Shown: positions 15,611 to 64,000 of the stretch, piece after piece | Layout of the letters: each line of letters starts with the position of its first letter | Numbering within the stretch: the first letter of the stretch is position 1 | NCBI RefSeq assembly: GCF_964204865.1 | Contig: NC_135255.1 | Coordinates: 12,925,135-12,989,134 of the forward strand | Reading direction: 5' to 3' | From: Styela clava | Lineage: Eukaryota; Chordata; Ascidiacea; Stolidobranchia; Styelidae | Length of the DNA stretch: 64,000 bases | Position numbers and translations under genes: made by a program | Notes under the pieces: model-generated | Seen by the model: the letters and a program-made list of their open reading frames with translations, nothing else | Databases searched by the model: none | Told to the model about the DNA's origin: nothing

Positions 15611-16228
15611 ATAGCTAATTTCCGATATGCCAGCTTTTCGGAAACGAAGTTTATCGATCCCATATTAATCTTCCAGTTCTCACATCATGCCAGTATTCTG
15701 TTGCTCGGAGTATAATGATAATTACGTCTCTAAGAAGTGTTTCATCGCCACTTTGCGCCTTTCATAATCTCGACCATTTCGAACTGTATCGGATCGCCTG
15801 AACCATGCATGACCATTTATCAATACTTCGCAATCAAAGTGGACTAGGTGCCAGTTGAAATTATAACCTACCCATCCTAAATAATAACTGACAATCATAC
15901 TATCGCGAAAACAGCGCTGTGATCAAATCCAAAACACAAGCTCCGTTATTATACGCTGGGTGTCACAGATATTTAAGCAATAAAACTATTCTAACTAACT
16001 TCGGTATTAGTGGAATGAAGTTTTGTTAAACGTATATTTTATCATCGCCTTGTAGATTTGACAAATTTGTGCCTTGAAAGAGCTGACTAGTTTCAGCATG
16101 TTTAAGGCCAGGGCGTGCCGGAGGAATAGCGATCTTTGCAGCATGATATTTTGTTAGTATGTCGTCACGCTTGATTTTATTGATTGCTAACTGCACAACA
16201 AGAATTAGATCTGCCGCTCATACTGATT
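15611..16228. repeat. U1 repeat block R1/R2
   Basis: Non-coding block present in U1, U2 and U5 (R1), continuing from about 16109 into R2 ('cagggcgtgcc...'), which occurs in all six units. In U1, R2 is shortened by an internal deletion that also removed the left end of element A. No coding sequence seen. Confidence 0.7.
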
Positions 16229-16822
16229 TTACCAATAAGGGCGCGGGCCACTTAACATTGTAGTTATGTTTTAATTTTGATACACTGACTACAGGTAATG
16301 ATAAAACAAACAATACTCTCACGCCAAATTTTCACAATTATTAGAACAATAAAACGGTTGTTTCCCAACCATTGATGGGGCACCATCAGTGGTTATTCCC
16401 AAAAGTTTCGCAAAAAACAAGCCAAGACGCTTGATCATTTCCATCACAGCTCCCAACAAATCAATGTCCATAGTCGTGCCACTAATTGGGGCAATGGCTG
16501 TGAACTCTTCAGGAATTTCAAAATCATCATTAACTCCACGCATGAAGAGCAGTAGACTTAATGCCAGTATTTTCGTCAAACACCGAGGAATATGATGAAA
16601 AGTTTCCCGCTTTTGCAATTGAAGCTTCTGCTATATAATTCCCAAGCTCTTCAACACGAAGAGAATCGTCTGTATTGACAGGCTTATATTTGCAAACGAC
16701 TCTTTTATTTCCGGACATCAATACTCAATTTTTTTATTCAATTCCGAAAAATACAGCGCGGGCCACTCAAAATGTTTGCGCGGGCCACATATGGCCCACG
16801 GGTCACGGGTTAGACGACCCTG
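16229..16822 (-). mobile_element. Element A copy 1 (hAT, Buster/GTF2IRD2-like), left end missing
   Basis: Minus-strand transposase fragments include FEIPEEFTAI, GTTMDIDLLGAVMEM and GITTDGAPSMVGK, typical of the hAT transposase related to GTF2IRD2-like proteins, plus an N-terminal piece starting MMSGNKRVVCKY. The coding region is frameshifted and lacks most of the catalytic part. The right terminus 'gacgaccctg' ends at 16822, followed by actcagat, a mutated form of the ccttagat target duplication seen in other units. Left terminus deleted. Confidence 0.8.
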
Positions 16823-16830
16823 ACTCAGAT

Positions 16831-17885
16831 TATAGCGGAGGGCAAATACCAGTACATCACATTTGCGTTGCGTATTTCACGCTTTCGCTCAGAATTAATT
16901 TCTGGAAACGTCGTTTACAACTGAGTAATGCGATAAATGAAAACACTATTTCACATGACGTATATTCACGGTTTTCGTCATAACGGGGCCCTTGCAAGAT
17001 CTAGGGAAAATCGCGCTTGCGGCGGTACCCGCGCAGGGGGGTAGGGAAATATTTTAAGGGAAGTAGAAGCGGACGCTCGTTAGAAGGGGTCGATAGATGC
17101 ACGCGGGTTGTTGCGCCGGTCGAATGGCGGTAATTCGTCCGGTTTGCTGCCCCCGACCCATTTAGACCCCTGAGTAATTCGGATAACACATTTTTTGTGA
17201 CAAACTTGATCTCAATTGCTTCGTATAACTTAAATATGGCATCTCTACCTATTACCATTCCGAGATATTACCTGAAATCACTGAAGCGTGACTGGGGGTA
17301 GGAGGGAAAAAATGCATTTAAATAATTATTCCAGCCGTGCCCATGTCTTTAGATTCCTAATAGGATTCGCCAGAAGATTGCAATAATTTAAAATCCCTAT
17401 ACCGTGACTGGGGGTGGGTGTGAAAAAATATTTAAAAAAACATTGACCTAACGTTTCCAACCATTCTTATGTTCTTCAATTCCTAACAGGACCTCTCAGA
17501 GGCCTGTAATAAGTCAAAATCACTGGGTCGTGACCGGGGGGGTAGGAGAAAAAAAAATCCTCAAAAAATTTCAAATAACTTTTCCAACTATTTTCATGTA
17601 CTATATTTTTTAATATCCTCATTCCGAGCCGCACAACATTCCAAAGTCACTGGAGCGTAACGGGGAGGGGGAAATACCAAATTTCCGGTCATGAAATATT
17701 CAATAAATTGTTCTTATCGGTAATTAGGCAACGCATTGCCGAAAATCGTTTTGACTCGTCTTCTCTGGCTCGATCGTTCTGAAAAATATTCTTAGTTAGT
17801 TTGGATTAGTTAGATCTAAACCCCGACCCTCATGTCAATTTTTGTCCGGATCGGCACGCCAGTTTTCAAGGAAACGCACGTCAAA
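16831..17885. repeat. U1 block R3: GC-rich segment followed by degenerate ~120-bp tandem repeats
   Basis: Present in every unit. The first part (to about 17240) is GC-rich and contains no convincing gene. The second part repeats a 'cgtgactgggggtaggag' core at 17287, 17403, 17529 and 17656 (spacing 116, 126 and 127 bp), each followed by an A-rich run and 'ttccaacca...ttatgt' text. It looks like a non-coding element with internal subrepeats; its class is unknown. Confidence 0.7.
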
Positions 17886-18528
17886 TAAAATGGCCGATTG
17901 ACGGCTTGAACTGCCAGTAATTCAGACAGTGAACTTGTTTCATTCCCGATATCTATAACAAGACATAAAAGTGAAACTAATTAGCATGATCATAAATCAT
18001 CGAGGACTATTTGAAAAAGTAGTATAGTCAAGAATAATTTTGAAATATATTCAAAATTCTCTAATAAATCTCTTTCACTTTGGAATAATAAACTAGTAAT
18101 TTGGAAGATACGAGAGATCTATTGAGTATACATATTATCCTCAATCTTAGTTATGTTTCACTTTTATAATATAACTTGGTATTATTATTGGCTCTACGTC
18201 GAGACGCACAATGTGTGAGGCCATTGCGATTGAGATCTAGCTAGTATCAGTTAGACATACAAATTTGAAAGATTGTAGTTTTTTATATTTCCATATATCG
18301 GATCCGGTGACTGGGCTGAAAACATTTACAATCGGAATTTTTGTAAATTCAAAAAATCAGGTATAATAAAAATTTCATTTTCTGCTTAAATATAGAAATC
18401 CGTTTATAAATCATAATTTTACGTTTTTTTATGTTTTATAAATGTAAATTCATTTTAGGTCGAACACAAGAGACAAAGAAACACAATTTGGCAAATAGAC
18501 TTGTTCAGAAACAAAGACATACAATATA
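17886..18528 (+). promoter_or_regulatory. Conserved 5' flank of alpha1 (P-alpha)
   Basis: About 640 bp shared by all alpha genes, from 'aaaatggccgattgacgg' to the start codon. It should hold the promoter and 5' UTR. A TATA-like 'ttataatataac' lies near 18165. The octamer agttagac near 18249 is an empty insertion site here but is occupied by elements D and E in two other units. Transcription start unknown. Confidence 0.5.
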
Positions 18529-20542
18529 ATGGGTAATATTGTGATGTTGGTATTTACCTATCATGTTTACGATTACATCATATTAAATGCGGAATAAGTA
18601 TAAAGTGTTAAAGTTTTAAATTGTTGGTATGTTTTATTTGAAGGAAATACCAAAAGAAATGTTATCATTTCGTTGATAGCAGTTGTTCTTATAATCAGCG
18701 GCATTGTAGTTGCGATTGTAACAAATATGAACACTTTTTCTTTTACTATCACCACTACAACTCCGACTACAACTCCGACGAATACTACTGCCGCTTCAAC
18801 AACTACTGAGACTATCCAGATGTTAACTGATCCAGGTTGGCTATAAATATCTGAAAACGAAAAGGGCATAATTTTAAATAAAAAGGGTAACAAGGTCCCG
18901 GTTTCAAACTCTTACTTAACAGACGGGTGCAAAATGCACTTGAATTGCATGTGCATGCGAATGATATATTTATAATCAATCGAAACAAGTCATTCAAGCA
19001 GTCATGTAATTAGTATCAGAGACATCCAATTAATCTATTAATTAAAAAAAAATGTTCACGTCGGGTAGATTTGTGATGGAGGGAATGCATAATATACAAC
19101 TATCCTATAGTGACAAATGATTTATAGGACTTCTGTGCGCTTCTACAAATATTCTATCATTGAATAAACGAACGTTTTTTGATTGGCAGTAAACGCGCTA
19201 TGTACTATAACAATTCGGGTTCAAAATGAATTACGATTGCACCTATTGTTTAAATATCTCGGATAGGTTTCATTGACTGAACAAGTTATATTCAAACCTC
19301 TCTGTTTTTACTCATTTCCAAAAATTTTGAGCTTGAACAGAATAAACTTGATCGATCTTAACTTATTCTGCAGATCCGGCTTGTTACTGGATTGAAATCG
19401 ATAAATCAATCAACATGAATTATGATGATGCGGTTGACGCCTGTTTGAAAAATAATGGAGTTATTGGTTCTCCGAAGGATGAAAATGCTCTTAACGCATT
19501 TATGGACTATGTGAGGCCGGAAAGAGGATACCGTAGAAGAATATGGACAAGTTTACAGATTGATCCTGAGGTAATTAACTGTCTTAGAAAACACTAAATC
19601 AAAACATTTGAGTTCAAAAGGGTTTGTATATGTTTTTCCATGCGTTAATTGAACAATTCCAAAAAATTAGCAAAAGCCAAAAACTGTTGCTAGAGGCTGG
19701 TAGAGGCTATCCATAAGCAACGAAATATTTTGTAGTTATATTTTTTTAAACAAGAGAATGATGCTTAAATATATAGATACGAATGCCAAAGCGAAGCATT
19801 AGCCTACCTTACCTTTTACAGAAACCTTACGTAGTCTACTGTACGGTACGATGGAAAAAACTTACGCGTTTCGCGTAGAAAGAGAGAGGTCGCTGAACCG
19901 CTACAAATAATTTTTTAATTTTGAAGAGGTCATCACACAAATTTCGGACGGAAAATCGAATCACATAGAATCATAAAGCACACATGAAGTTTAGAAATAA
20001 ATTAAGCAGTAGATCTCAAGCGAAAAATACGTTCTTAAACCACTAAAATTTCGAAGCAATTGGTCTAGTAGTAGATGAGGAAAGCAGTTTTTTCATAAAA
20101 AGAAGAAAAATATCAGCGAAAACAACAAACAACCTCATAATAACAAAACGATCCATAGATACACTAAAATGAGTTTAATAAAATATTGCTGTTATCCCCC
20201 CCCCAATCGAATTCTCCCAGCAATTCCAACCTTTGAACTAACTTATTAATATTGCTTTAATTAAACCATGCTATCTCTCAAATTCAATTGACTTATTTTT
20301 AGACGAATGTGATATCACCTGAGGGTGCATACACCAAATGGTCAAAAGGGCAACCTTACCTAGGTTCTCCGTTCAAAATTTATACCGGAGTTATGCTGAT
20401 GGTACATGTAGACAAGACAACAGACGAGAACGGGATGGCAAATTGGTTTGTCACATCAATAGCATACGGAGTTGTATGCCAGACTCATCTAAATGACAAC
20501 AAAAGGCCAACCGATGTTGATTACCTCGATGGACCATGTTAA
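18529..20542 (+). CDS. alpha1: membrane-anchored C-type-lectin-like protein, 4 exons
   Basis: Predicted 210-aa protein. Exons 18529-18532, 18644-18835, 19374-19570, 20303-20542 (633 nt). Exon 1 holds only ATG+G; the phase-1 junction gives MGNTKRN. Residues about 8-27 are hydrophobic (type II anchor or signal peptide), 33-64 are a Thr-rich stalk with an NTT sequon, and 69-192 are a C-type lectin-like domain: ACYW, YDDAVDAC (Cys89), IWTSL, the long loop with Q148-P149-Y150, and GVVCQT (Cys190). The loop cysteines of a standard domain and the WND calcium motif are missing; an extra Cys210 is the last residue. A frame beginning at MRNKYK inside intron 1 hits a stop here, which favours the spliced start. 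Poly(A) signals AATAAA lie at 20730 and 20935. A cell-surface recognition role is inferred. Confidence 0.85.
19751..20166. repeat. Intron-3 element of alpha1 ('caagagaatgatgc' family)
   Basis: Starts caagagaatgatgcttaaat and ends near 'aacgatccatagatacac'. Present at the same place in all five alpha genes, so it was inserted before duplication. It shares ends and the 'ccactaaaatttcgaagcaattggtc' region with the insertion at 36534-37831. Confidence 0.6.
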
Positions 20543-21395: not shown

Positions 21396-22070
21396 AATGG
21401 CCGATTGACGACTTGAACTGCCAGTAATTCAGACAGCAAACTTGTTTTATTCCCGATATCTATAACAAGACATAAAAATCAAACTATAGCATGGCCATCG
21501 AGGACTATTTAAAAAAGTAGTATAGCCAAGAATAAATTTGAAATATTATTAAAATTTCTTATATAACTGTTTCACTTTGGAATAATAAACTAGCAATTTT
21601 GCGACGACGCGAGATATATTGGTTTACCCACATTGACATAGAAGAGTACACTTTACGTAGTGATCCAACATTTTTGTATATGCGTTTTTACAATTGAGTA
21701 TACCCATTATCCCCAATTTTAGTCGTGTTCCACATTTATAATATAATTTGGTATTATTAATATTGGCGCTACGTCGATTTGCCCAATGTGCGAGGCTATT
21801 GCAGTTGAGATCTAGCTAGTATCAGTTAGACATACAATTTGAAAGATTGTAGTTTATTATATTTCAAAATAGCGGCCCCGTTGACTGACCTGAAAATAAT
21901 TACAAACAGAAATTTGCAAATTCAAAAAACCTGGTATGACATAATTTTGCCATTTTCTGTAAATATAGCACTCCGATTATAAATACTTATAAATGGATTT
22001 TAGGTAGAATATGGGAAACAAACAGAGAAAAAGTATCTGAAGCAGTTGGGAAAAAAAGAAACACAATAAA
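21396..22070 (+). promoter_or_regulatory. Beta1 5' flank (P-beta), undisrupted version
   Basis: A diverged copy of the alpha flank (same 'aaaatggccgattgac' start, agatctagctagtatc and agttagac text). The octamer taatttgg (21744-21751) occurs once here: this is the empty site that holds hAT element B in other units. Confidence 0.6.
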
Positions 22071-22394
22071 ATGGGTAGTAATATGATGTTGTTATTTACC
22101 TATCATGTTTACTACTACATCATATTGAATGCGGAATAAGTAAGTATAAAGTGTATCAAATGTACATTTGAAATTGTTGGTATGTTTTATTTGAAGGAAA
22201 TGCCAGAAGAAATGCGATCATTTCGTTGATTGCCGCTGTTGTTATAATCTGCTGCATTGTAGTCGCGGTTTTAACAAATAAGAACACTTTTTCTTCTACT
22301 ATCACCACTACAACTCCGACGAATACTACTGCCGCTTCAACAACTACTGAGACTACGCAGATGATAACAGAGAAGAAGACTACAAATGATCCAG
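22071..22394 (+). pseudogene. beta1: lectin-like gene with only exons 1-2
   Basis: Exons 22071-22074 and 22197-22394 encode MGNARRN, a hydrophobic anchor with two adjacent Cys, and a Thr-rich stalk ending TEKKTTNDP; the frame is open and the donor (gttggg) is retained. Similarity to alpha intron 2 stops at about 22679, where a hAT end begins, and no CTLD exons follow before the next unit. Probably a 5' gene remnant; a short secreted or anchored stalk peptide is conceivable but unsupported. Confidence 0.8.
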
Positions 22395-22679
22395 GTTGGG
22401 TATAAAAATCCGAAAAAAAGCAAGCAGCATAAATAATTTTTCAAACTAGAATGTAACAGAGTGCCCTCGTCCATCTGTTACTTAACAGCCCGGTGCAAAA
22501 TGCATTTGAAATGCATGTACATTCTTATGATATATTTACAATTATTCGAAAAAATTCCCAAGCAGTCATGTAATTAGCATCAGAGACATCCAATTAATCT
22601 AATAATTCAATAGATCTGATAACGTATGATATGTGATATGTGATGGATATAATGCATATGCAGCTATCACAGTGGTTCT

Positions 22680-22748
22680 CGTACTTTTCGAAAAAAAATT
22701 CCACAACGGACCCCTTGCAATTTTTTGATTCCCGGCCTTGTTCATAGC
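22680..22748. mobile_element. Element F, left end only (hAT), in beta1 intron 2
   Basis: Starts cagtggttctcgtactttt and continues to 'cggaccccttgc', the classic look of a Charlie/Buster-type hAT terminus. The preceding 8 bp, agctatca, fit the nnnTAnnn target pattern of Buster-type hATs. No right end found. The insertion coincides exactly with the loss of the beta1 CTLD exons. Confidence 0.6.
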
Positions 22749-24020
22749 TAATTTCCGATACGCCAGCTTTTCGGAAACGAAGTTTATCGATCCCATATTA
22801 ATCTTCCAGCTCTCACATCATGCCAGTATTCTGTTGCTCGGAGTATAATGTTAACTACGTCTCCAAGAAGTGTTTCATCGCCACTTTGCGACTTTCATGA
22901 TCTCGACCATTTTGAACTGTAGCGGATCGCCTGCACCACGCATGATCATTTATCAATACTTCGCAATCAAAGTGGACTAGGTGCCAGTTGAAATTATAAC
23001 CTAGCCATCCTAAATAATAACTGACAATCATATTATGGCAAAAACAGCGCTGTGATCAAATCCAAAACACAAGCTCCGTTATTATACGCTGGGTGTCACA
23101 GGAATTTAAGCAATAAAACTATTCTAACTAACTACAGTATTAGTGGAATGAAGTTTTGTTAAACGTATATTTTATCATCGCCTTGTAGATTTGACAAATT
23201 TGTGCCTTGAAAGAGCTGACTAGTTTCAGCATGTTTTAGGCCAGGGCGTGCCTGAGGCATAGCGATCTTTGCAGCATGACATTTTTCACGCTTGTTACTT
23301 ATCAATTTTAATCGGTTAGTATGTTGATAAGTATTTGTCTGTTTGTTTGTCTGTCTGTCTGTTAGATGTACGCGATATCTCACGAAAGCGAGATTGAATC
23401 TGCTCCAGATTTTGCATGTGCATTCATCATATGTCGTACCAGAAGCCTATTGATTTTGGATGAATTATGTAATATAATTAGCAAGTTATTGATTAATTAG
23501 TGATGGGATTAATAGTGATAGTGATTGGGACAAGGTGTGACTATGGAGTAAAAGCGCTGTTTTGGGGGATCCCCTAACTTTCGATCGATGAGTCTTCGGT
23601 CTCTGACCATTTTATTGATTGCTAACTGCACAGCAAGAATTAGATCTGCCGCTCAAACTGATTGTCCATGTTCATTCCCAATGCCCTCACACAGAAGTAT
23701 AAAAATATTTTGTATATACTGTATATATTATATATATTGTGTATACATATTTTTGATGTAATGTGATATGGAACGATTACAAGAACAGTGTTTGTTTTAT
23801 GCGAGGATCTGCATTTAGGCATATTTCATGTTTTCGTGCATGTGAACTCAAACCGTTTATACAGACCGGTTTTGATAAGGGCTGTAGTCTAAAATAGCAC
23901 CACAATCTTGTGATTTTTTACCCTCGAGGTAATTATCACATTTTACCATAACAAAATTCTGGTTTATCTTTTTTCGTATCGACTGTTGATGAAAAGTAAG
24001 ATCATGTATTTTGATCATGT
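22749..24020. repeat. U2 repeat block R1/R2
   Basis: Matches U1 and U5. Includes a short (tgtc)n-like run near 23337-23362 and the TA-rich stretch 'tgtatatattatatatattg' near 23720. No coding sequence seen. The right end is fused directly into the middle of element A. Confidence 0.7.
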
Positions 24021-24438
24021 ATTCGCAAAAAACAAGTCAAGACGCTTGATCATTACCATCACAGCTCCCAACAAATAAATGTCCATAGTCGTGCCACTAA
24101 TTGGGACAATGGCTGTGAACTCTTCAGGAATTTCAAAATCATCATTAACTCCACGCATGAAGAGCAGTAGACTTAATGCCAGTATTTTCGTTAAGCGCCG
24201 AGGAATACGATGAAAACTTTCCCGCTTTTGCAATTGAAGCTTCTGCTATAGATTTCCCAAGCTCTTCAACACGAAGAGAATCGTCTGTATTGACAGGCTT
24301 ATATTTGCAAACGACTCTTTTATTTCCGGACATCAATACTCAATTTTTTTTATTTAATTCCGACAAATACAGCGCGGGCCACTCGAAATGTTTGCGCGGG
24401 CCACATATGGCCCGCGGGCCACGGGTTAGACGACCCTG
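24021..24438 (-). mobile_element. Element A copy 2 (hAT), left end missing
   Basis: Same transposase fragments as the other A copies (FEIPEEFTAI, MMSGNKRVV), but the left ~200 bp including GITTDGAPSMVGK are deleted; the junction is near 24020. The right terminus gacgaccctg ends at 24438. Confidence 0.75.
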
Positions 24439-24446
24439 ACTCAGAT

Positions 24447-25470
24447 TATAGCGGAGGGCAAATACCAGTACATCACATTTGCGTTGCGTATTTCACGCTT
24501 TCGCTCAGAATTAATTTCTGGAAACGTCGTTTACAACTGAGTAATGCGATAAATGAAAACACTATTTCACATGACGTATATTCACGGTTTTCGTCATAAC
24601 GGGGCCCTTGCAAGATCTAGGAAAAATCGCGCTTGCGGCGGTACCCGCGCAGGGGGGTAGGGAAATATTTTGAGGGAAGTAGAAGCGGACGCTCGTTAGG
24701 AGGGGTCGATAGATGCACGCGGGTTGTTGAGCCGGTCGAATGGCGGTAATTCGTCCGGTTTGCTGCCCCCGACCCATTTAGACCCCTGAGTAATTCGGAT
24801 AACACATTTTTTGTGACAAACTTGATCTCAATTGCTTCGTATAACTTAAATATGGCATCTCTACCTATTACCATTCCGAGATATTACCTGGAATCACTGA
24901 AGCGTGACTGGGGGTAGGAGAAAAAAATGCATTTAAATAATTATTCCAGCCGTGCCCATGTCTTTAGATTCCTAATAGGATTCGCCAGAATATTGCAATA
25001 ATTTAAAATCCCTTCACCGTGACTGGGGGTGGGTGGAAAAACATATTTAAAAAAACATTTAACTAACTTTTCCAACCATCCTTATGTTCTTCAATTCCTA
25101 ACAGGACCTCTCAGAGGCCTGTAATAAGTCAAAATCACTGGGTCGTGACTGTGGGGTAGGAGAAAAAAAATCCTTAAAAAATTTTTTCCAACTATTTCTA
25201 TGTACTAAATTTCTTAATATCTTCATTCCGAGCCGCACAACATTCTAAAGTCACAGGAGCGTAACGGGGAGGTGAAAATACCAATTTTCCGGTTGTGCAA
25301 TATTCAATTAATTGTTCTTATTGGTAACTAAGCAACGCGTTGCCCAAAAACGTTTTTGACTCGCTCTCTCTGGCTCGATCGTTCTGAAAAATATTCTTAG
25401 TTAGTTAGGTCTAAACCCCTCAATTTTTGTCCGGATCGGCACGCCAGTTTTCAAGGAAACGCACGTCAAA
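24447..25470. repeat. U2 block R3 (GC-rich plus ~120-bp subrepeats)
   Basis: Same organisation as the U1 copy. Subrepeat cores 'cgtgactgggggtaggag', 'cgtgactgggggtgggtgg' and 'cgtgactgtggggtaggag' are visible from about 24903. Confidence 0.65.
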
Positions 25471-27625
25471 TAAAATGGCCGATTGACGGCTTGAACTGTC
25501 AGTAATTCAGATCGTGAATTTGTTTCATTCCCGTTATCTATAACAAGACATAAAAGTGAAACTAATTAGTATGATCATAAATCATCGAGGACTATTTGAA
25601 AAAGAAGTACAGTCAAAAATAATTTTTAAATATTTTTAAAATTCTCTAATACATCTCTTTCACTTTGGAATAATAAACTAGCAATTTGGAAGATACGAGA
25701 GATCTATTGAGTATACTTATTATCCTCAATCTTAGTTATGTTTCACTTTTATAATATAACTTGGTATCATTATTGGCTCTACGTCGAGTCGCACAATGTG
25801 TGAGGCCATTGCAATTGAGATCTAGCTAGTATCAGTTAGACCAGGGGTGGCCTACCTTTCACACACCATGCGCCACATTTTAAACATAATGTTTCAGATG
25901 CGCCGTAAATCTCTTGTATTCCCACGCCCAATGTCCGCTTTTTGTTGAAATTATATAAATCTATGATACACACATATATATACACACGTATATGTAGTTT
26001 TTACAATTTACAACTTCACATGAATAGAAATTAAGCAAGGAAGTATAATGAATAAAACTGATCAATTTTAAGTACCGCCTTTATGAGACTTTTGCTGCTG
26101 TTTTACTTTCGCCAGTTTTTTTATTCTTGGAGTTAAGTTTGTTACTGAGAGGAGCAGTGCATTCTTCAAATTTAAATCTGTAAGTCTTGACCTCGCTTTG
26201 CTTTTAATTAGTTTCATGGCAGAAAATGTTTTTTCACATCTATATGTCGTTCCGAAACGACATATAAAACCCTGGACAAATTTTCTCAGTTCTGGAAAAT
26301 TTTCACGAGGTAACGATTGCCAGAACTTGATCATGTCAGATGCACTTGGGACTGAAGAAAGCTCATCAAATTGAATTTTCAATGATGTATGAGTTTTCAA
26401 GTCAATTAGTTCCAAATGTATATTGCTTGGCATCTTCATTATGGTTAGTTCACTAAGTGCAAATGGGTTTATAAAAGCAAGTATAGAGTCTTCTTCTTTT
26501 GAAATATCATGGAAACGACTTTCAAATAACTCTTGCAATAACTTGATTTTTTCTGTGTATATTGCCAAATTGCCATTATCAGCAGCACATTCACGGTGTT
26601 ATTTTATGTGAGATACGATTAAGAAGTAAAGTTAGGCGTAATATTGTGACAACAGGCCCTTAGTATCAATCTCTACTCCACTCTACCCTCGATTCTAATT
26701 GGCCTTTGCTAATCAGCTGTTTGGCCTAGCGTCGCGTGATTTTACTCCAGGGGCTTCTTCGAGATTAGTACTTGCGTCACAGCAAGCGATTTTACGGTTC
26801 GCTTTTGTTGACAACGGTCATTTGAAATTTGGATGGAAAAGGTGGTATTTAGGGGTCATTTTCAGCATGTTGTGGGTTGATTTATGAGAAATTTGTTGGT
26901 TGGTTGGAAAAAGGTTGTTCAATGGTTATTGGGAGATATTTGGGAAGTCTGAGCAATGGAAAATCCATGTTTCAAGCTGATAAATGACGATTTTCTATTT
27001 TTCCAGAAGTTCTGAACTTTTCACTTCAGTAGGGAAAAAATAGTAAATTTTACTAATTTTTGCTAAAAGTCTAGAATGAATGTCATAAAGTCCATCCAAA
27101 AGCTAACGTCGATAATCGCCTGTTGTTTCTAATTCCAACAAGCCGTAAGTGGGCGACGTGGAGTAAGAAGAATAGGTTTTAGGTACAATCAAAAGTCACC
27201 ATGTAAATCGCAAAAAAACGGCTTGGCGTGGAGAAGCCAAGTGCAATTAACAATTTTGGCATGAAAAGGGTTAAAGATGCAATGCGCCACCTCTAATCAT
27301 GCAATGCGCCACGTTTGGCGCATGCGCCATAGGTTGGCCACCCCTGAGTTAGACATACAAATTTGAAAGATTGTAGTTTTTTATATTTCCATATATCGGA
27401 TCCGGTGACTGGGCTGAAAACATTTACAATCGGAATTTTGTAAATTCAAAAAATCAGGTATAATAAAAATTTCATTTTCTGTTTAAATATAGAAATCCGT
27501 TTATAAATCATAATTTTACGTTTTTTTATGTTTTATAATTGTAAATTAATTTTAGGTCGAACACAAGAGACAAAGGAACACAATTTGGCAAATAGACTTG
27601 TTCAGAAACAAAGACATACAATATA
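25471..27625 (+). promoter_or_regulatory. alpha2 5' flank, interrupted by element D
   Basis: P-alpha sequence at 25471-25841 and 27355-27625, split by the 1505-bp element D at the agttagac octamer. Whether alpha2 expression is affected cannot be judged. Confidence 0.5.
25842..27346 (-). mobile_element. Element D: hAT transposon remnant with perfect 8-bp target duplication
   Basis: Starts caggggtggcctacc, ends ggttggccacccctg (inverted termini), flanked by agttagac at 25834-25841 and 27347-27354. A minus-strand 166-aa open frame (26068-26568) contains the hAT C-terminal region: ENFPELRKFVQGF, YRCEKTFSAMKLIKSKARSRLTD, similar to GTF2IRD2/EPM2AIP1-type hAT proteins. The N-terminal and catalytic core are absent, so it is non-autonomous. 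Alpha1, alpha4 and alpha5 show the empty site. Confidence 0.92.
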
Positions 27626-33426: not shown

Positions 33427-33434
33427 CCTTAGAT

Positions 33435-44959: not shown

Positions 44960-44967
44960 CCTTAGAT

Positions 44968-45606: not shown

Positions 45607-45614
45607 CCTTAGAT

Positions 45615-51249: not shown

Positions 51250-51521
51250 GTTGGCTATAAAAATCCGAAAAAAAGCAAGCGACATAAATAATTTTTCAAA
51301 CTAGAATGTAACAGAGTGCCCTCGTCCATCTGTTACTTAACAGCCCGGTGCAAAATGCATTTGAAATGCATGTACATTCTTATGATATATTTACAATTAA
51401 TCGAAAAAATTCCCAAGCAGTCATGTAATTAGCATCAGAGACATCCAATTAATCTAATATTTCAATAGATGTGATTACGTCGGGATGGTATGTGATGGAT
51501 ATAATGCATATGCAGCTATCA

Positions 51522-51590
51522 CAGTGGTTCTCGTACTTTTTGAAAAAATATTCCACCGCGGACCCCTTGCAATTTTTTGATCCCCGGCCT
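51522..51590. mobile_element. Element F, left end only (hAT), in beta4 intron 2
   Basis: Same cagtggttctcgtactttt terminus and the same insertion point (after agctatca) as in beta1, showing that beta1 and beta4 descend from one disrupted gene. Confidence 0.6.
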
Positions 51591-52873
51591 TGTTCATAGC
51601 TAATTTCCGATACGCCAGCTTTTCGGAAACGAAGTTTATCGATCCCATATTAATCTTCCAGTTCTCACATCATGTCAGTATTCTGTTGCTCGGAGTATAA
51701 TGTTAACTACGTCTCCAAGAAGTGTTTCATCGCCACTTTACGAATTTCATAATCTCGACCATTTCGAACTGTAGCGGATCGCCTGCACCATGCATGATCA
51801 TTTATCAATACTTCGCAATCAAAGTGGACTAGGTGCCAGTTGAAATTATAACCTACCCATCCTAAATAATAACTGACAATCATAAAATGGCCAAAACATT
51901 GCTGTGATCAAATCCAAAACACAAGCACCGTTATTATACGCTGGATGTCACAGATATTTGAGCAATAAAACTATTCTAACTGACTACGGTATTAGTGGAA
52001 TGAAGTTTTGTTAAACGGATATTTTATCATCGCCTTGTAGATTTGACAAATTTTTGCCTTGAAAGAGCTGAGAACAGTAGTTTCAGCATGTTTTAGGCCA
52101 GGGCGTGCCTGAGAAATAGCGATCTTTGCAGCATGATATTTTGTTAGTATGTCGTCACGCTCGATTACTTATCGATCTTAAGATCGGTAAGTATGTTCAT
52201 GGTATTTGTCTGTTTGTCTGTTAGATGAACGCGATATCTCAAGAAGGCAAGGTTGAATCTGCTCCAAATTTTGTGCATTTATCACATCTCGGACCAGAAG
52301 CCTATTGATTTTGGATGAATTATGTCGTATAATTAGTGAGGTATTAATTAATAAGTGATGGGACACGCGGTGTCACTACAGAGCCATGATTCGAAACCAC
52401 AGTTTCGATTGATAAGTCTTCGGTCTCCAACCGATGTTCTCGTTTTATTGATTGCTAACTGCACAACAAGAATTAGATCTGCCGCTCATACTGATTGTCT
52501 ATGTTCATTCTCAATGCCATCACACAGAAGTATGAAAGTATTTTTGTATATACTGTATATATATATTGTGTATATATATTTTGATGTAACGTGACATGGA
52601 ACGATTACAAGAACAATGTTTGTTTTATGCGAGGATCTTCATTTAGGCATATTTCATGTTTTCGTGCATGTAAACTCAAACCGTTTATACAGACCGGTTT
52701 TGATAAGGGCTGTAGTCTAACATAGCACCACAATCTTGTGATTTTTTACCCTCGAGGTAATTATCACATTTTACCATAACAAAATTCTGGTTTATCTTTT
52801 TTCGTATCGACTGTTGATGAATAGTAAGATCATGTATTTTGACCAATAAGAGGCTGTGGGCGTGTAGATGAAA
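51591..52873. repeat. U5 repeat block R1/R2
   Basis: R1 matches U1 and U2; R2 starts near 52099. It contains the same hairpin and TA-rich tract. No gene seen. Confidence 0.65.
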
Positions 52874-52881
52874 CCTTAGAT

Positions 52882-53510
52882 CAGGGTCGTCCGATCTTTT
52901 TGGCCAAAGGGCCACATGTAATTTACTAAAAAGTGCGTGGCCCACTTAACATTGTAGTTATGTTTTAGTTTTGCTACACTGACTACAGGTTTATAAAAAA
53001 AAAAAAAAAAAAATACCCTCACCCCAAACTTTCACAGTTATGAGAACAATAAAACTGTTGTTTCCCAACCATTCATGGGGCGCCGTCAGTGGTTATTCCC
53101 AAAAGTTTCGCAAGACGCTTGATCATTTCCATCACAGCTCCCAACAAATCAATGTCCATAGTCGTGCCACTAATTGGGATAATGGCTGTGAACTCTTCAG
53201 GAATTTCAAAATCAATAATAACTCCACGCATGAAGAGCAGTAGACTTAATGCCAGTATTTTCGTTAAGCGCCGAGGAATACGATGAAAACTTTCCCGCTT
53301 TTGCAATTGAAGCTTCTGCTATAGATTTCCCAAGCTCTTCAACACGAAGAGAATCGTCTGTATTGACAGGTTTATATTTGCAAACGACTCTTTTATTTCC
53401 GGACATCAATACTCAATTTTTTTATTCAATTCCGAAAAATACAGCGCGGGCAACTCAAAATGTTTGCGCGGGCCACATATGGCCCACGGGTCACGGGTTA
53501 GACGACCCTG
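52882..53510 (-). mobile_element. Element A copy 5 (hAT), complete ends
   Basis: cagggtcgtc to gacgaccctg, flanked by ccttagat at 52874-52881 and 53511-53518. Lacks the 'aaaacaagtca' segment next to the GITTDGAP region that the other copies have, so its frame differs there. Confidence 0.9.
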
Positions 53511-53518
53511 CCTTAGAT

Positions 53519-54630
53519 TATATCGGAGGGCAAATACCAGTACATCACATTTGCGTTGCGTATTTCACGCTTTCGCTCAGAATTAATTTCTGGAAACGTC
53601 GTTTACAACTCAGTAATGCGATAAATGGAAACAATATTTCACATGACGTATATTCACAGTTTTCGTCATAACGGGGCTCTTGCAAGATCTAGGAAAAATC
53701 GCGCCTGCGGCGGTACCCGCGCAGGGGGGTTAGGGAAATATTTTGAGAGAAGTAGAAGAGGACGCTCGTTAGAAGGGGTCGATAGATGCACGCGAGTTGC
53801 GAGTTGCGCCGGACGAATGATGGTAATTCGTCCGGTTTGCTGCCTCCGACCCATTTAGACCCCTGAGTAATGTGGATAACACATCATAAACCGGTAACTC
53901 CTAATGGAAGTCGAGTTTCATCAATGTCCGGGTCCGTAATCACTCAACCGTGGCGACATTTTTTGTGATAAACTTGATCTCAATTGCTTCGTATAACCTA
54001 AATATGGCATCCATACCTATTACCATTCCGAGATATTACCTGGAATCACTGAAGCGTGACTGGGGGTACGAGAAAAAAATGCAATTGAATAATTATTCCA
54101 GCCGTGCCCATGTCTTTAGATTCCTAATAGGATTCGCCAGAATATTGCAATAATTTAAAATCCCTTCACCGTGACTGGGGGTGGGTGTAAAAAAATATTT
54201 AAAAAAACATTTAACTAACTTTTCCAACCATCCTTATGTTCTTCAATTCCTAACAGGACCTCTCAGAGGCCTGTAATAAGTCAAAATCACTGGGTCGTGA
54301 CTGTGGGGTAGGAGAAAAAAAATCCTTAAAAAATTTCAAATAACTTTTCCAACTATTTCTATGTACTAAATTTCTTAATATCCTCATTCCGAGCCGCACA
54401 ACATTCCAAAGTCAATGGAGCGTAACGCGGAGGTTAAATACCAATTTTCCGGTTGTGCAATATTCAATAAATTGTTCTTATTGGTAATTAAGCAACGCGT
54501 TGCCCAAAAACGTTTTTGACTCGCTCTCTCTGGCTCGATCGTTCTGAAAAATATTCTTAGTTAGTTAGGTCTAAACCCCTCAATTTTTGTCCGGATCGGC
54601 ACGCCAGTTTTCAAGGAAACGCACGTCAAA
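53519..54630. repeat. U5 block R3 (GC-rich plus ~120-bp subrepeats)
   Basis: Same layout as the other units; the subrepeat part resembles U2, the upstream part U3/U4, so it may be recombinant. No gene seen. Confidence 0.6.
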
Positions 54631-55273
54631 TAAAATGGCCGATTGACGGCTTGAACTGCCAGTAAATCAGATCGTGAATTTGTTTCATTCTCGTTATCTA
54701 TAACAAGACATAAAAGTGAAACTAATTAGTATGATCATAAATCATCGAGGACTATTTGAAAAAGAAGTATAGTCAAGAATAATTTTGAAATATTTTTAAA
54801 ATTCTCTAATAAATCTCTTTCACTTTGGAATAATAAACTAGTAATTTGGAAGATACGAGAGATCTATTGAGTATACTTATTATCCTCAATCTTAGTTATG
54901 TTTCACTTTTATAATATAACTTGGTATTATTATTGGCTCTACGTCGAGACGCACAATGTGTGAGGCCATTGCGATTGAGATCTAGTTAGTATCAGTTAGA
55001 CATACAAATTTGAAAGATTGTAGTTTTTTATATTTCCATATATCGGCCCCGGTGACTAGGCTGAAAACATTTACAATCGGAATTTTTGTAAATTCAAAAA
55101 ATCAGGTATAATAAAAATTTCATTTTTTGTTTAAATATAGAAATCCGTTTATAAATCATAATTTTACGTTTTTTTATGTTTTATAATTGTAAATTAATTT
55201 TAGGTCGAACACAAGAAACAAAGGAACACAATTTGGCAAATAGACTTGTTCAGAAACAAAGACATACAATATA
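54631..55273 (+). promoter_or_regulatory. alpha5 5' flank (uninterrupted P-alpha)
   Basis: Whole-length match to the alpha1 flank with small differences; the agttagac site is empty. Confidence 0.5.
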
Positions 55274-57298
55274 ATGGGTAATATTGTGATGTTGGTATTT
55301 ACCTATCATGTTTTCGATTACATCATATTAAATGCGGAATAGGTATAAAGTGTATCAAATGTACATTTTAAATATTTGGTATGTTTTATTTGAAGGAAAT
55401 ACCAGAAGAAATGTTATCATTTCGTTGATAGCAGTTGTTCTTATAATCAGCGGCATTTTAGTTGCGATTGTAACAAATATGAACACTTTTTCTTCTACTA
55501 TCACCACTACCACTCCGACTACAACTCCGACGAATACTACTGCCGCTCCAACAACTACTGAGAATGTCCAGATGTTAACAGAAAAAAAGACCACAACTGA
55601 TCCAGGTTGGCTATAAATACCTGAAAACGAAAAGTGGCATAATTTAAAAAAAAAAGGGTAACAAGGTCCCGGTTTCAAACTCTTACTTAACAGACGGGTG
55701 CAAAATGCACTTGAATTGCATGTGCATGCGAATGATATATTTATAATCAATCGAAACAAGTCACTGAAGCAGTCTATAATTAGTATCAGAGACATCTAAT
55801 TAATCTATTAATTCAAAAAAATGTTCACGTCGGGATGATATGTGATGGAGGGAATGCATAATATACAACTATCCTATAGTGACAAATAATATATTGGACT
55901 TCTGTGCGCTTCTACAAATATTCTATCATTGAATAAACGAACGTTTTTTGATTGGCAGTAAACGCGCTATTTACTATAACAATTCGGGTTCAAAATGAAT
56001 TACGATCGCACCTATTGTTTAAATATCTCGGATATGTTTCATTGACTGAACATGTTATATTTAACCTCTCTGTTTTTACTCATTTCCAAAAATTTTGAGC
56101 TTGAACAGAATAAACTTGATCGATCTTAACTTATTATGCAGGTCCGGTTTGTTACTGGATTGAAATCGATAAATCAAAAAGCATGAATTATGATAAAGCG
56201 GTTGACGCCTGTTTGAAAAAGAATGGATTTATTGGTTCTCCGAAGGATGAAAATGCTCTTAACGCATTTATGGACTATGTGAGGCCGGAACTAGGAAACC
56301 GTAGAAGAATATGGACAAGTTTACAGATTGATCCTGAGGTAATTAACTGTCTTAGAAAATACTAAATCAAAACATTTGAGTTCAAAAAGGTTTGTATATG
56401 TTTTTACATGTGTTGATTGAACAATTCGAAAAAATTAGCAATAACTGTTGCTAGAGGCTGGTAGAGGCTAACCATAAGCAACGAAATATTTTGTAGTTAT
56501 ATTTTTTAAACAAGAGAATGATGCTTAAATATATAGATACGAATGCCAAAGCGAAGCATTAGCCTACCTTACCTTTTACCGAAACCTTACGTAGTCTACT
56601 GTACGGTACGATGGAAAAAACTTACGCGTTTCGCGTAGCATGAGAGAGGTCGCTGAACCGTTACAAATGATTTTTTTAATTTCGAAGAAGTCTTCACACA
56701 AATTTCGGACGGAAAATCGAATCACATAGACTCTTAAAGCACACAGGAAGTTTAAAAATAAATTAAGTAGTAGATCTCAAGCGAAAAATACGTTCTTAAA
56801 CCACTAAAATTTCGAAGCAATTGGTCTAGTAGTAGATGAGGAAAGCAGTTTTTTCATAAAAAGAAGAAAAATATCAACGAAAACAACAAACAACCTCATA
56901 ATAACAAAACGATCCATAGATACACTAGAATGAGTTTAATAAAATATTGCTTTTATCCCCCCCAATCGAATTCTCCCAGCAATTCCAACCTTTGAGCTAA
57001 CTTATTAATATTGCTTTAATTAAACCATGCTATCTCTCAAATTTAATTAACTTATTTTTAGACGAATGTGATATCACCTGAGGGTGCATACACCAAATGG
57101 TCGAAAGGGAAACCCTGGGGGTCTCCGTTCGTAACTTTTACCGGAGTTATGCTGATTGTACATGTAGACGAGACAACAGACAAGAACGGGATGGCAAATT
57201 GGACCCTTGGATCACTAGCATACGGAGTTGTATGCCAGACTTATCTAAATGACGAAAAAAGGCCAACCGATGTTGATTACCTCGATGGATCATGTTAA
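55274..57298 (+). CDS. alpha5: membrane-anchored C-type-lectin-like protein, 4 exons, most diverged
   Basis: Predicted 215 aa. Exons 55274-55277, 55396-55605, 56142-56338, 57062-57298 (648 nt; exon 4 is one codon shorter than in the paralogs). MGNTRRN, anchor, stalk with AAPTTTENVQ changes and TEKKTTTDP, then GPVCYW (Ala to Val before Cys) and a CTLD with YDKAVDAC, RPELGNRRR and IWTSL. The long loop reads KGKPWGSPF, so the triad position is K-P-W, and NWFVTS of the paralogs is NWTLGS. Terminal Cys kept. Intron 1 is open from MRNRYK. The first AATAAA used as poly(A) candidate in the paralogs is mutated to AATCAG near 57485; the second (57690) is intact. Confidence 0.83.
56511..56936. repeat. 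Intron-3 element of alpha5
   Basis: Ortholog of the alpha1 intron-3 element, same ends. Confidence 0.6.
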
Positions 57299-58139: not shown

Positions 58140-61100
58140 CACGTCAATTGAAATGGCCGATTGAATAAATTTAAAATATTATTAAGATTTCTTATATAAC
58201 TGTTTCACTTTGGAATAATAAACTAGCAATTTTGCGACGACGCGAGATATATTGGTTTACCCACATTGACATAGAAGAGTACACTTTACATACTGATCCA
58301 ACATTTTTGTTTATGCGTTTTTACAATTGAGTATAGCTATTATCCCCAATTTTAGTCGTGTTCCACATTTATAATATAATTTGGCAGTGGCGGCGCGTGG
58401 TCATTTTGACAACCGGGGCAAGCTACTGCGGGACCAAGTCACCCCCATCTACGGGGACAGGATGAGCGCTGTAAGTTCTCCCATCATTTTATGAGTATAA
58501 AAATCATTCCATCGGTAACAACCAATCGGCAAAAGCGACAATTTTTAACGATAAGAAAGTGTCTTTAAAACCGGTACAAGTCAAGGGATTAATAAATATA
58601 GACATAGTTTATTTTGAAACCTCTTTCAAAAGGAAAGGCAATATTTACCCAGATAAATACAATGACATATTAACAGAAATTTCGGGAAAGCAGACAAAAC
58701 CTAAAATAAGGTTTAAAACGTTACTATGAAGAAAGGAAAGATATTGCAAAGATAAGGACATGCGTCGCTCACTCATAGATATATATGCTGCTAGACTTCT
58801 ACTGCTTGAACATATATGCAACACGCCGCGGTTTCTTGGAAGCAATATGCTCAATAACGCGCTGATTAAAGTCATGCATCCCAGAAATAACGTCTATGTG
58901 AATGGATAAAACAGCCAAGGAATTTAATCTATCTTGCTTCATTGTGTTTCTAAGATACGTTTTAATACGCTTCAGCGTGCTGAATGTTCGCTGTGCGTCG
59001 GCGGAAGAAATAGGCGTCGTCAAAATGATGTCCAGAAATTTTGCAGACGCCGCAAAGGTAGTTACTAGAGTGTTATCTATGAGGAACCCATAGAGCGCGC
59101 AAGTTGATGTGATGTTCAAAACAGTTTGATTGGTGTATATACATCGCAATTCATTTTCCAATTTACCCACGTTTATCATGGGGTTAAATTTGGAGACAGT
59201 AGCCAACAAATGGATGGGAAATTGACGTGCAAATTTTAAAAATTTTTGGGGTTCATCAAAGAGAACGCGGCAAGGTGTTCAGTGCGCATCGCCTTTTGAT
59301 TCACCAGAATATCACAGCATTCCTTTGCAGACAGAATCAAACGCTGCGTTGTTTGCCCGCGGCTTAAAGAAGCACTCCATGTGTCGTCGTATTTTATTGT
59401 TTCCCGGATACGAGAAACAGCATCGCAGAAGTCTGAAATACACGACTGCACAGACGCTCCATCCATTAGCCTTGACTGCAATGCGCCGTATAATACATCC
59501 ACGTGATAGAATATTGTGGAGACAAAAGCGAGAAAAAATGAAAACTCACCATCTTCTAGCAGACGCTTTAGACCTGCCGCCTCCCTCACAGAGCGTTCGT
59601 CCCAAACCGGAGAGCTCTGAATGCCATTGAAACACTCAATGAGCTCAGACCTAATTTCGGACACGCCCTACACCACGCGTGATTGGAAGTTCCAACGTGT
59701 TGGTGCACAAGCTGGGAGAGAGCGGCTACATATCTGGCGAAGGAGGTCAGAGCGCTTCGGCGAAACGGAAAAAAAATGAAGAAAACCCCGAAACATTTGC
59801 AAAAAATATACGGACGAGAGGGGTATCAAGACACATATTTTTAATAACGAGGTTAAATTGGTGTGCATAACAATGTAAAAAATGCGCATGAGGAAAATCT
59901 TCTTTTATATAAACTTGAACACCGTGTTTTGACCCACTCATGACTGCCGCGCCGTCATAAGTTTGAGCTATCAATTTTGACTTCGCGTTGTAAGGCTGTA
60001 ACACTTCTTTCAGTACAGCCGATATCCCGCAAGCCGTGCGATCAACGATTGGTACAAAGCTGTGAAATCTCTCGGTAGGTTTACCATCTTTCACAACCGA
60101 AAAATCACAGCCAGTTGGGAAACGCACGTGATGTCAGTTGTCTCGTCAGATTGAATCGAAAGGAACTGGCAATTCTCAATTTCCAGAGCCAAATGTTGTA
60201 AATAAATTTTATACATTGAGTCGAGCAAATCATTTTGGATATCCTTAGATGTCCCTTTCGAAACAGTTGCGGCATCAAGATGATCTCTCAATACTGTATC
60301 TAGGGATGCGGTGTATTCCACCATATCCAAAAATACCCCTCTATTAGAAGAGTCAGCCCGTTCATCGGGCCCACGGAGGGACAGCTCGTGACAACCAATG
60401 AACTTCAAAACATCTATCAATCGACCGAGAACATGGCGGTTTTTCTCGACGTTTTGGTTGTGCCGACGAATAGAAACCGCGCGTCCTTCATCCAACTGTG
60501 CTGCAATATTAACATTTCCGAATGTTCGGTATTTTACTCCATTGTCCAGATGCTCCATAGAAGATTGATGATCCCTGGCACGCTCGGAAAGATGTTTAAG
60601 ATCTCTAAAACTAAATTTATACCAACGTGAGTCACGGGGGTAGCAAAAAGTAGGCAATAAAATAAAAACAAAAAAGTGCATTTTTGTCCTCGCTGTAACA
60701 CAACCATTCGTGTTTTTTATACCAAGTTCCTGCGCAGAATGTACGCCGACGCTTTCCTCCGTCATGGGGTTGTTCCAGTGAACAATTTTTTGGCTGCTAA
60801 GGCCCAAGACGTTGTACCTCTAATTTTTGTTCCAGCGGCAGCTGCGAAAACGGAGTGCGAAGTAGTGCATCAACCTTATTCATTATGAGGTCTAAGGCTA
60901 AGAAATGCGAAGTCGGAAAGAAGTGAGGAGCAAATGGCAAAGCACTAAAGGTCTCTAACTGATTCAAATAGCGAAACAAGCGACAAAAACGAAAGCGAGG
61001 AAACTATCATCTCTTCAAGCAACCAACGAACGAGAAGGAATGCGTGAATATGTCAACACGTTGTTGTAAGAAACGTCGGCATTGTGTCGTCATAATTTCG

Positions 61101-62275: not shown

Positions 62276-62283
62276 CCTTAGAT

Positions 62284-62921
62284 CAGGGTCGTCCGATCTT
62301 TTTGGCCAAAGGGCCACATGTAATTTACTAATAAGTGCGTGGCCCACTTAACATTGTAGTGATGTTTTAGTTTTGCTACACTGACTACAGGTTTATAAAA
62401 ATAAAAAAAAATACCCTCACGCCAAACTTTCACAGTTATTAGAACAATAAAACTGTTGTTTCCCAACCATTGATGGGGCGCCATCAGTGGTTATTCCCAA
62501 AAGTTTCGCAAAAAACAAGTCAAGACGCTTGATCATTTCCATCACAGCTCCCAACAAATAAATGTCCATAGTCGTGCCACTAATTGGGACAATGGCTGTG
62601 AACTCTTCAGGAATTTCAAAATCATCATTAACCCCACGCATGAAGAGCAGTAGACTTAATGCCAGTATTTTCGTTAAGCGCCGAGGGATACGATGAAAAC
62701 TTTCCCGCTTTTGCAATTGAAGCTTCTGCTATAGATTTCCCAAGCTCTTCAACACGAAGAGAATCGTCTGTATTGACAGGCTTATATTTGCAAACGACTC
62801 TTTTATTTCCGGACATCAATACTCAATATTTTTTATTTAATTCCGACAAATACAGCGCGGGCCACTCGAAATGTTTGTGCGGGCCACATATGGCCCGCGG
62901 GTCACGGGTTAGACGACCCTG
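62284..62921 (-). mobile_element. Element A copy 6 (hAT), complete ends
   Basis: cagggtcgtc to gacgaccctg, flanked by ccttagat at 62276-62283 and 62922-62929. Same internally deleted transposase as copies 3 and 4. Confidence 0.92.
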
Positions 62922-62929
62922 CCTTAGAT

Positions 62930-64000
62930 TATATCGGAGGGCAAATAACAGTACATCACATATGCGTTAAGTATTTCACGTTTTTGCTCAGAATTAAGTT
63001 CTGGAAACGTCGTTTACAACTCAGTAATGCGATAAATGAAAACACTATTTCACATGACGTACATTCACGGTTTTCGTCATAACGGGGCCCTTGCAAGATC
63101 TAGAAAAAATCGCGCCTGCGGCGTTACCCGCAAGGAGGAAGGTAAAGAAATATTTTGAGGGAAGTAGAAGCGGACGCTCGTTAGGAGGGGTCGATAGATG
63201 CACGCGGGTTGTTGCGCCGGACGAAAGGCGGTAATTCGTCCGGTTTGCTGCCCCCGACCCATTTAGACCCCTGAGTAATTTGGATAACACATCATAAACC
63301 AGTAACTCCTAATGGACGTCGAGTTTCATCAATGTCCGGGTCCGTAATCACTCAACCGTGGCGACATTTTTTGTGATAAACTTGATCTCAATTGCTTCGT
63401 ATAACTTAAATATGGCATCCATACCTATTACCATTCCGAGATATTACCTGGAATCACTGAAGCGTGGCTGGGGGTACGAGAAAAAAATGCATTTAAATAA
63501 ATATTTTAAACGTGCCCATGTCTTTAGATTCTTAATAAGATTCGCCAGAAGATTGCAATAATTTAAAATCCCTATACCGTGACTGGGGGTGGATGTAAAA
63601 AAATATTTAAAAAAAAACATTGACCTAACCTTTCCAACCATCCTTATGTTCTTCAATTCCTAACAGGACCTCTCAGAGGCCTGTGAAAAGTCAAAATCAC
63701 TGGGTCGTGACCGGGGGTAGGAAAAAAAAAAATCCTCAAAAAATTTCAAATACCTTTTCCAACTATTTTCATGTACTATATTTTTTAATATCCTCATTTC
63801 GAGCCGCACAACATTCCAAAGTCACTGGAGCGTAACGGGGAGGGGAAAATACCAAATTTCCGGTCATGAAATATTCAATAAATTGTTCTTATCGGTAATT
63901 AGGCAACGCATTGCCGAAAATCGTTTTGACTCGTCTTCTCTGGCTCGATCGTTCTGAAAAATATTCTTAGTTAGTTTGGATTAGTTAGATCTAAACCCCG
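62930..64000. repeat. U6 block R3 (GC-rich plus ~120-bp subrepeats), truncated by window end
   Basis: Same layout as the U3 and U4 copies, with subrepeat cores near 63465, 63582, 63708 and 63832. No gene seen. Confidence 0.65.

Follow-up and report, generated by a model that had tools for sequence, protein, structure and literature searches.

A tandem array of genes for small putative type II membrane proteins with a divergent C-type lectin-like domain in the tunicate Styela clava

The KLR genes of the mammalian natural killer (NK) complex (Ly49/KLRA, KLRC, KLRH) are clustered genes for proteins with a C-type lectin-like domain (CTLD). They have expanded in a species-specific manner, and the available part of one account describes recombination between tail/anchor and CTLD portions, gene conversion and pseudogenes (PMC5350243). 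The sea urchin Sp185/333 genes are clustered, similar immune genes with repeats at the unit edges, segmental duplication and gene conversion, and the accessible text of that paper has a section titled 'There are no pseudogenes' (PMC5103432). Excerpts of two further reports state that carbohydrate binding was lost in group V CTLDs (PMC514892) and is absent from CD94-1 of Ciona (PMC5465252). Here we describe a tandem array of genes for small proteins with a divergent CTLD, found in a 64,000-nucleotide stretch of the tunicate Styela clava (the window; G000:C6:12925135-12989134). In tunicates, the sister group of the vertebrates, the recognition of microbes and of other individuals is still poorly understood. 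No description of a tunicate array of this kind was found among the titles and abstract starts listed in searches of open-licence literature.

In gene evolution, the NK-complex genes and Sp185/333 appear to be nearest to the array. KLR proteins have signalling tails or charged anchors, whereas in the array proteins the tail has 7 residues, the anchor is uncharged, the stalk is rich in Thr and the C2-C3 cysteine pair is missing. The likeness to the KLR genes, as far as the available account of them goes, lies in clustered CTLD genes with expansion, recombination, gene conversion and pseudogenes, and our guess is that the two arose independently. The Sp185/333 proteins are unrelated to the array proteins. 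The likeness there, within the accessible text on them, is in clustered similar genes, repeats, duplication and conversion, and the difference is that this array contains four broken copies. In protein plan, the nearest described molecules are the tunicate CD94-1 proteins (the Botryllus schlosseri CD94 orthologue and Ciona CiCD94-1), which were compared by description only. They also come from a tunicate host, and the available parts of their descriptions mention no tandem array (PMC5465252). We consider it probable that the array is a tandem family, young and restricted to its lineage, that encodes small type II membrane proteins; the most likely use of these is recognition. Our confidence is not higher because the profile support for the CTLD covers the exon-3 half only.

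The region analysed consisted of the window with 30 kb of left flank and 170 kb of right flank (264 kb in total, without any N), and the assembly searched was 376.6 Mb. The original prediction had placed five intact four-exon genes and at least two gene fragments in the window, in a unit repeated five times and starting a sixth. This description agreed with our models: within 15.6-64 kb, genes A-E and two relics all point in the same direction, and the five genes have open frames, GT-AG introns and identical intron phases. The unit recurs mostly at 93-99% identity over kilobases with spacings of 7.6-12.2 kb, so chance is not an issue, and a sixth unit starts at about 62.4 kb. The proposed left edge at 15611 was also borne out, since 15611-16152 and 22744-23285 are 95.6% identical. 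When the suggested extension to the right was made, the array reached about 109.2 kb and contained in total ten open four-exon genes (A-J), one frameshifted paralogue of a second type (K) and three exon-1/2 relics. The array is real, well delimited and larger than the window showed. Its parts are as follows, in window coordinates.

15611 to 64000, plus strand: the part of the tandem array inside the window; the array continues to about 109.2 kb (G000:C6 about 12940745-13034340).
18529 to 20542, plus strand: gene A, exons 18529-18532, 18644-18835, 19374-19570 and 20303-20542 (including the stop codon).
22050 to 22607, plus strand: relic a, second paralogue type, exons 1-2 only, 79.5% identical to gene A over this stretch.
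27626 to 29650, plus strand: gene B, exons 27626-27629, 27733-27942, 28485-28681 and 29411-29650.
36534 to 37831, no strand assigned: insertion of about 1.3 kb that adjoins the ATG of gene C, in the expected 5' leader; its ends recur ahead of gene F.
37835 to 39861, plus strand: gene C, exons 37835-37838, 37950-38159, 38700-38896 and 39622-39861.
47388 to 49394, plus strand: gene D, exons 47388-47391, 47510-47689, 48228-48424 and 49155-49394.
50905 to 51510, plus strand: relic d, second paralogue type, exons 1-2 only, with a stop codon in the stalk.
55274 to 57298, plus strand: gene E, exons 55274-55277, 55396-55605, 56142-56338 and 57062-57298.
67289, 76784, 83104, 92508 and 103258: genes F, G, H, I and J, right of the window.
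80.3 kb: relic g, second paralogue type, exons 1-2 only.
106.8 to 109.2 kb: K, second paralogue type, with matches to exons 2-4 and a frameshift in exon 3 (read by eye).

Beyond these copies, no more matches to exons 2-4 were found across the 264 kb. Genes C and F encode an identical protein. Gene C is intact with the caveat of the insertion in its presumed 5' leader, and the expression of C and F may differ from that of the other copies, since the insertion before the ATG is common to both. Relics d and g have the same stop codon in the stalk, and the second paralogue type is broken in 4/4 copies seen.

All ten genes A-J have open frames and GT-AG introns. The contribution of exon 1 is limited to ATGG, which together with exon 2 encodes the 7-residue tail MGNT[RK]RN. 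Another model of exon 1, with the tail MGNIVML, was rejected: the donor that it required is absent in B and C, and ATGG followed by GTAATA fits 10/10 genes. Within intron 1, a start that reads MRN[RK]YK... is open in seven of the ten (B, D, E, G, H, I, J) and closed in A, C and F. If this intron were retained, the protein would begin with a different segment of about 16-21 residues, which is a possible isoform only. The tail is followed by a hydrophobic segment, whose best 19-residue stretch (residues 9-27) has a mean hydropathy of 3.2, with the next best stretch at 1.4 or below. The stalk is Thr-rich, with 44-52% Ser/Thr and an N-glycosylation sequon in 10/10 proteins. The domain that is presumed to be extracellular comes from exons 3 and 4. 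Four cysteines are invariant in the ten proteins (75, 95, 196 and 216 in the numbering of B, 216 being the last residue), and D and G have one additional cysteine a few residues outside the hydrophobic segment. The tail, anchor and Thr-rich stalk that had been predicted were thus found. The single CTLD predicted after them stood as divergent homology of the exon-3 half; its Lectin_C match stayed below the Pfam cut-off.

The hydrophobic segment could instead be a signal peptide, in which case the products would be small, mucin-stalked CTLD proteins secreted into mucus, tunic, gut or gametes. Among marine animals, small CTLD proteins in soluble form are common, and the hydrophobic run starts at residue 8, as in many signal peptides. 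However, the run is about 20 residues long, which is longer than the usual h-region of signal peptides, its mean hydropathy is 3.2, and no clear cleavage site was seen after it. We regard secretion as unlikely and keep to a type II membrane anchor.

The domain was compared with CTLDs in several ways. The curated (gathering) cut-off of the Pfam family PF00059 Lectin_C is 22.6 bits. Proteins A-E were scanned (the F protein equals C), and Lectin_C matched at the same place in 5/5, below the cut-off in every case: A 16.2, B 15.7 (obtained with the rejected tail MGNIVML), C 18.4, D 16.8 and E 17.5 bits. It was the best Pfam match only in A and D; in the others it was outranked by SirB (B, C) and New_glue (E), themselves sub-threshold. 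A profile of the five proteins searched against the PDB gave tetranectin CTLDs as all of its top three matches (E-values 0.03-0.06), which reach about 20 residues into exon 4. A reference profile was built from the CTLDs of the same genome, with seven of eight loci (L005, whose domain is incomplete, was dropped). As a hidden Markov model, it scored the ten array proteins at 5.6-8.0 bits (E-values 0.002-0.011 in this ten-protein search). In hhalign, the array profile alone matched it with a probability of 12%, an E-value of 0.0025 and a score of 24.4, against 14.9 for the best of ten shuffles. A profile of exon 3 from seven sequences, including four relatives from C9 and C8 that had been chosen by their likeness to the array, matched it over 38 columns with a probability of 86.7, a score of 34.1 and an E-value of 4.4e-6, and the best of 200 column shuffles scored 18.4. 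Against the PDB, the exon-3 profile found a non-CTLD chain first (E-value 0.014), then DEC-205 and E-selectin (E-values 0.13-0.15). By comparison with the CTLDs of the genome itself, homology has support in the exon-3 half only, and the loop half in exon 4 was assigned to the CTLD by eye alone. The proposed check against a CTLD profile was therefore positive only by profile-profile comparison of the exon-3 half.

The C1-C4 cysteine pair and WIGL are motif names of the CTLD superfamily. Cysteines 95 and 196, which would be C1 and C4, are invariant in 10/10 proteins (C4 was placed by eye). The WIGL-like core reads W-T-S-L in nine proteins and W-T-S-S in G, and W-T-G-I or W-T-R-I in the four relatives. 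The C2-C3 disulfide is part of the canonical domain, and none of the ten proteins has a cysteine between 95 and 196. Since some CTLDs lack this pair, it is not strictly defining. The calcium-ligand motifs of C-type lectins are EPN/QPD and WND. Placed by eye, the first site reads QPY, KPD, QPD, KPW, KPL, KPR or QAY depending on the copy, with QPD in D and G only, and WND is absent from 10/10 proteins, the site reading W-F-V, W-T-L or W-S-V (also placed by eye). Group V NK-receptor-like CTLD proteins are defined by a type II anchor, a CTLD lacking a calcium site and their phylogenetic placement; in the array proteins, a hydrophobic N-terminal segment and a missing WND were seen. On these profiles we regard the domain as a divergent CTLD that is not to be filed under PF00059 and that, by its motifs, is not a lectin.

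The CTLD half also has many relatives elsewhere in the genome. The anchor-stalk exon had 14 matches in the genome, 14/14 inside the array, and the CTLD half of gene B had 94. Twenty-two of these are the eleven exon-3 and eleven exon-4 copies of the array, and the remaining 72 are all distant, with 58 of them on C9. When a C9 exon was used as the query, 150 of 455 candidates were scored, of which 77 fell in C9:21.05-23.45 Mb, 10 in this array and 63 elsewhere. The 77 matches are on both strands of a 2.4-Mb cluster; since some matches to this query are incomplete or interrupted by stops, not every one is a gene. Four relatives (three from C9, one from C8) are 38-43% identical to B in exon 3. As single exons they scored 17.1, none, 14.4 and 17.0 bits for Lectin_C, so that 4/4 sampled exons were below the cut-off or without a score. 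A phmmer search of one C9 exon against the PDB gave no match. The C9 cluster resembles the array in its homologous exon 3, in the place of the exon end where this was read, and in the cysteine of a CY[WFY] motif. In one C9 gene region (L049), exon 3 has the same phase-0 end as in the array genes. The upstream exons there, read by eye, are coiled-coil-like rather than anchor and Thr stalk, and the next exon ends differently. On these matches the CTLD exon belongs as one branch to a CTLD-like family of very large size, and in the array this branch seems to have been combined with an anchor and stalk of its own.

Other observations were made on these genomic matches. None of the C9 cluster matches was in the genome list for Lectin_C (150 scored of 698 candidates). 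Between about 22.6-22.7 and 23.06-23.09 Mb of C9, matches of equal score occur in pairs on opposite strands (22616042- / 23090001+; 22626369+ / 23071221-; 22680137- / 23063750+), which suggest a large inverted duplication, either real or an assembly effect. At L001, L003, L007 and L008, collagen-like Gly-X-Y stretches lead into the CTLD within one open frame; these are collectin-like genes.

Variation between the array copies was concentrated in exon 4. The copies differed by a mean pairwise distance of 0.068 in exon 4, about twice the value for introns 2 and 3 (0.033); exon 2 stood at 0.028, exon 3 at 0.038 and 800 bases of 3' flank at 0.024. At gap-free sites, 40/237 were variable in exon 4 and 195/2140 in the introns and 3' flank (Fisher p 0.0005); exons 2 and 3 together (30/377) did not differ from the non-coding sequence (p 0.56). 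The loop region of exon 4 had 23/100 variable non-synonymous and 6/29 variable synonymous sites (p 7.6e-5 and 0.046 against non-coding). The ratio of non-synonymous to synonymous rates (dN/dS) was 3.06 in exon 2, where events were few (11 non-synonymous and 1 synonymous columns), 0.98 in exon 3 and 0.76 in exon 4. Thus, the excess variation is present, with no clean sign of positive selection.

Switches of parentage were examined with a maximum-chi-square test on seven chosen triplets, with 1000 shuffles each. D and G are A-like from exon 2 through the first ~50 bases of exon 4 and then J-like, and J is E-like up to intron 3 and D-like from exon 4 on; each of these three switches was reached in 0/1000 shuffles. 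Intron 1 is J-like in D and G (7/7 sites). Further breaks were found in intron 1 for D (A vs E, 6/1000 shuffles) and in the 3' flank for B (A vs E, 0/1000). The triplets A (D vs C) and B (C vs A) showed no switch (172 and 322 of 1000 shuffles). By this test most of exon 4 has been exchanged between copy lineages. D, G and J have a common end on two different bodies, which takes one exchange or more close to the junction of intron 3 and exon 4.

A recognition role of the array proteins is likely, and it is the most likely use because the variation is concentrated in the presumed loop exon. Repeated segments before the genes would promote unequal crossing-over, by which units are added and removed, and exchange near the intron 3/exon 4 junction would give each copy its own combination of stalk and N-terminal half with a loop half. 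The protein would stand on the cell surface with its N terminus inside and a glycosylated stalk outside, and its CTLD, which lacks the canonical calcium site, might have a protein or a glycan as its ligand. With no signalling tail, it could be an adhesion molecule or a ligand, or signal through a partner. Recognition could be immune or between self and non-self. Several findings weigh against this reading, in addition to the low Pfam scores and the exon-4 half read by eye. Intron 1, which is short, was also highly variable (mean distance 0.050), and the borders of the loop region were set after the alignment had been viewed. Non-synonymous and synonymous sites of the loop are equally over-variable (p=1) and the pooled dN/dS is 1.01; therefore, the excess in exon 4 may be imported old diversity and not positive selection. 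The exchange of exon 4 could have been one event or two. No signalling motif was seen by inspection of the 7-residue tail. Among the flanking reading frames examined, mostly by eye and with one Pfam match, no immune-like gene was found.

The array may have an immune or allorecognition use; it is quite improbable that this is an allorecognition locus proper, in which the copies serve as self-labels or receptors in self/non-self discrimination between individuals. To our knowledge, the tunicate histocompatibility locus fuhc is not a CTLD gene. The CD94 content in the available part of PMC12065747 concerns vertebrate receptors. What speaks for such a locus is that array turnover and exchange of the loop exon resemble the expansion, recombination and gene conversion reported in the accessible account of the NK complex (PMC5350243). 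A wider proposal is also doubtful: the locus would serve to recognise pathogens or to tell self from non-self, its copies would pass the presumed loop exon 4 among themselves as a cassette, and the anchor-stalk module that carries it would be newly assembled. The array would then be an outlier of a CTLD-like receptor complex that extends over megabases of C9 and may escape standard profiles, and it would be a tunicate counterpart of the NK complex with an independent origin. A contiguous array with an exchanged presumed binding half, together with a very large related cluster whose sampled exons score poorly in Pfam, offers concrete genes for work on expression in blood cells and on variation among individuals. 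If this is only an ordinary lectin-like expansion, it shows that divergent CTLD families can slip below profile cut-offs.

The predicted expansion with ongoing turnover was seen in the relics, in recent copies of 13-kb blocks and in the exchange of exon 4. Repeated segments precede the genes, and transposon pieces lie between them.

16407 to 18256, no strand assigned: repeated segment of ~1.9 kb before gene A, with copies before the other nine genes.
About 24022-25841, 33010-34925, 45189-47115, 53111-55001 and 62505-64433: copies of this segment in the window or at its edge; four further copies lie right of the window, the copy before H being partial.
26068 to 26598, minus strand: C-terminal piece of a hAT transposase (Dimer_Tnp_hAT, 27.7 bits, cut-off 21.4).
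30537 to 31205, minus strand: DUF4371 piece (45.1 bits, cut-off 32.1), also present in other units.
41563 to 41970, minus strand: C-terminal piece of a hAT transposase (29.5 bits), with a near-identical frame at 58799-59278.

The simplest inference is that the array expanded via unequal crossing-over between the pre-gene repeats, which makes this segment a candidate substrate. The one reading frame of the segment that was scanned (before gene A) had no Pfam match. Some of the hAT and DUF4371 transposon pieces lie within blocks that are up to 98% alike between units.

Such growth could also have been passive, with repeats driving unequal crossing-over and the genes carried along as near-neutral passengers without a recognition role. 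A copy of the same segment stands before each of the ten genes, dN/dS is close to 1, 4/14 anchor exons are in broken copies of the second type, and the absence of stops from 70 variable coding columns is weakly informative, being only weakly unexpected by chance (P ~0.08). However, the first-type genes are open with GT-AG introns in 10/10 cases, and the excess of variation is in exon 4 and not in the introns and 3' flank taken together. Gap blocks, not all of which are independent events, were multiples of three in 3/3 coding and 5/33 non-coding cases (Fisher p 0.008). The reading frames seem to be conserved, and we consider passive growth a lesser possibility than a recognition family, though the least doubtful of the alternatives weighed here.

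Two block pairs are nearly identical: 39460-52673 and 68859-82054 (13.2 kb, 99.3%), and 52099-65701 and 89316-102914 (13.6 kb, 99.1%). Allelic divergence in tunicates can reach this level, and the pairs (39.5-52.7 / 68.9-82.1 and 52.1-65.7 / 89.3-102.9 kb) might be haplotypes joined end to end, so that the true array would be shorter. This is improbable: the 264 kb contain no N, intron 3 has a 60-base gap in F against C, and the spacing from relic to next gene differs (4344 vs 2793 bases). Even then a multi-copy array remains, given the divergence of 0.9-5.2% among A, B, C, D, E and J over introns 2 and 3.

In the surroundings of the array, Rfam (gathering) and tRNA searches of the window gave no match, and 4/10 reading frames scanned matched Pfam. 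A C-terminal piece of an acyl-CoA synthetase (by Pfam), an RRM protein and SLC22-like pieces (both by eye) are in the left flank; the SLC22-like looking pieces at 10954-11241 and 13501-13797 had no Pfam match. COX1 was searched for in the assembly and not found. A GH6 exon on C9 (35.4 bits, cut-off 27) speaks for a tunicate host. We know of no GH6 in other animals. Tunicate CesA and GH6-1 carry GH6, as the available part of one report states (PMC7464555). In the right flank, a methyltransferase and a myosin were recognised by eye. Farther right, at about 200-231 kb in window coordinates (L025-L028), a galactosyltransferase-like looking frame is repeated at least three times, and long retroelement-like reading frames lie at 218-222 kb (both by eye).

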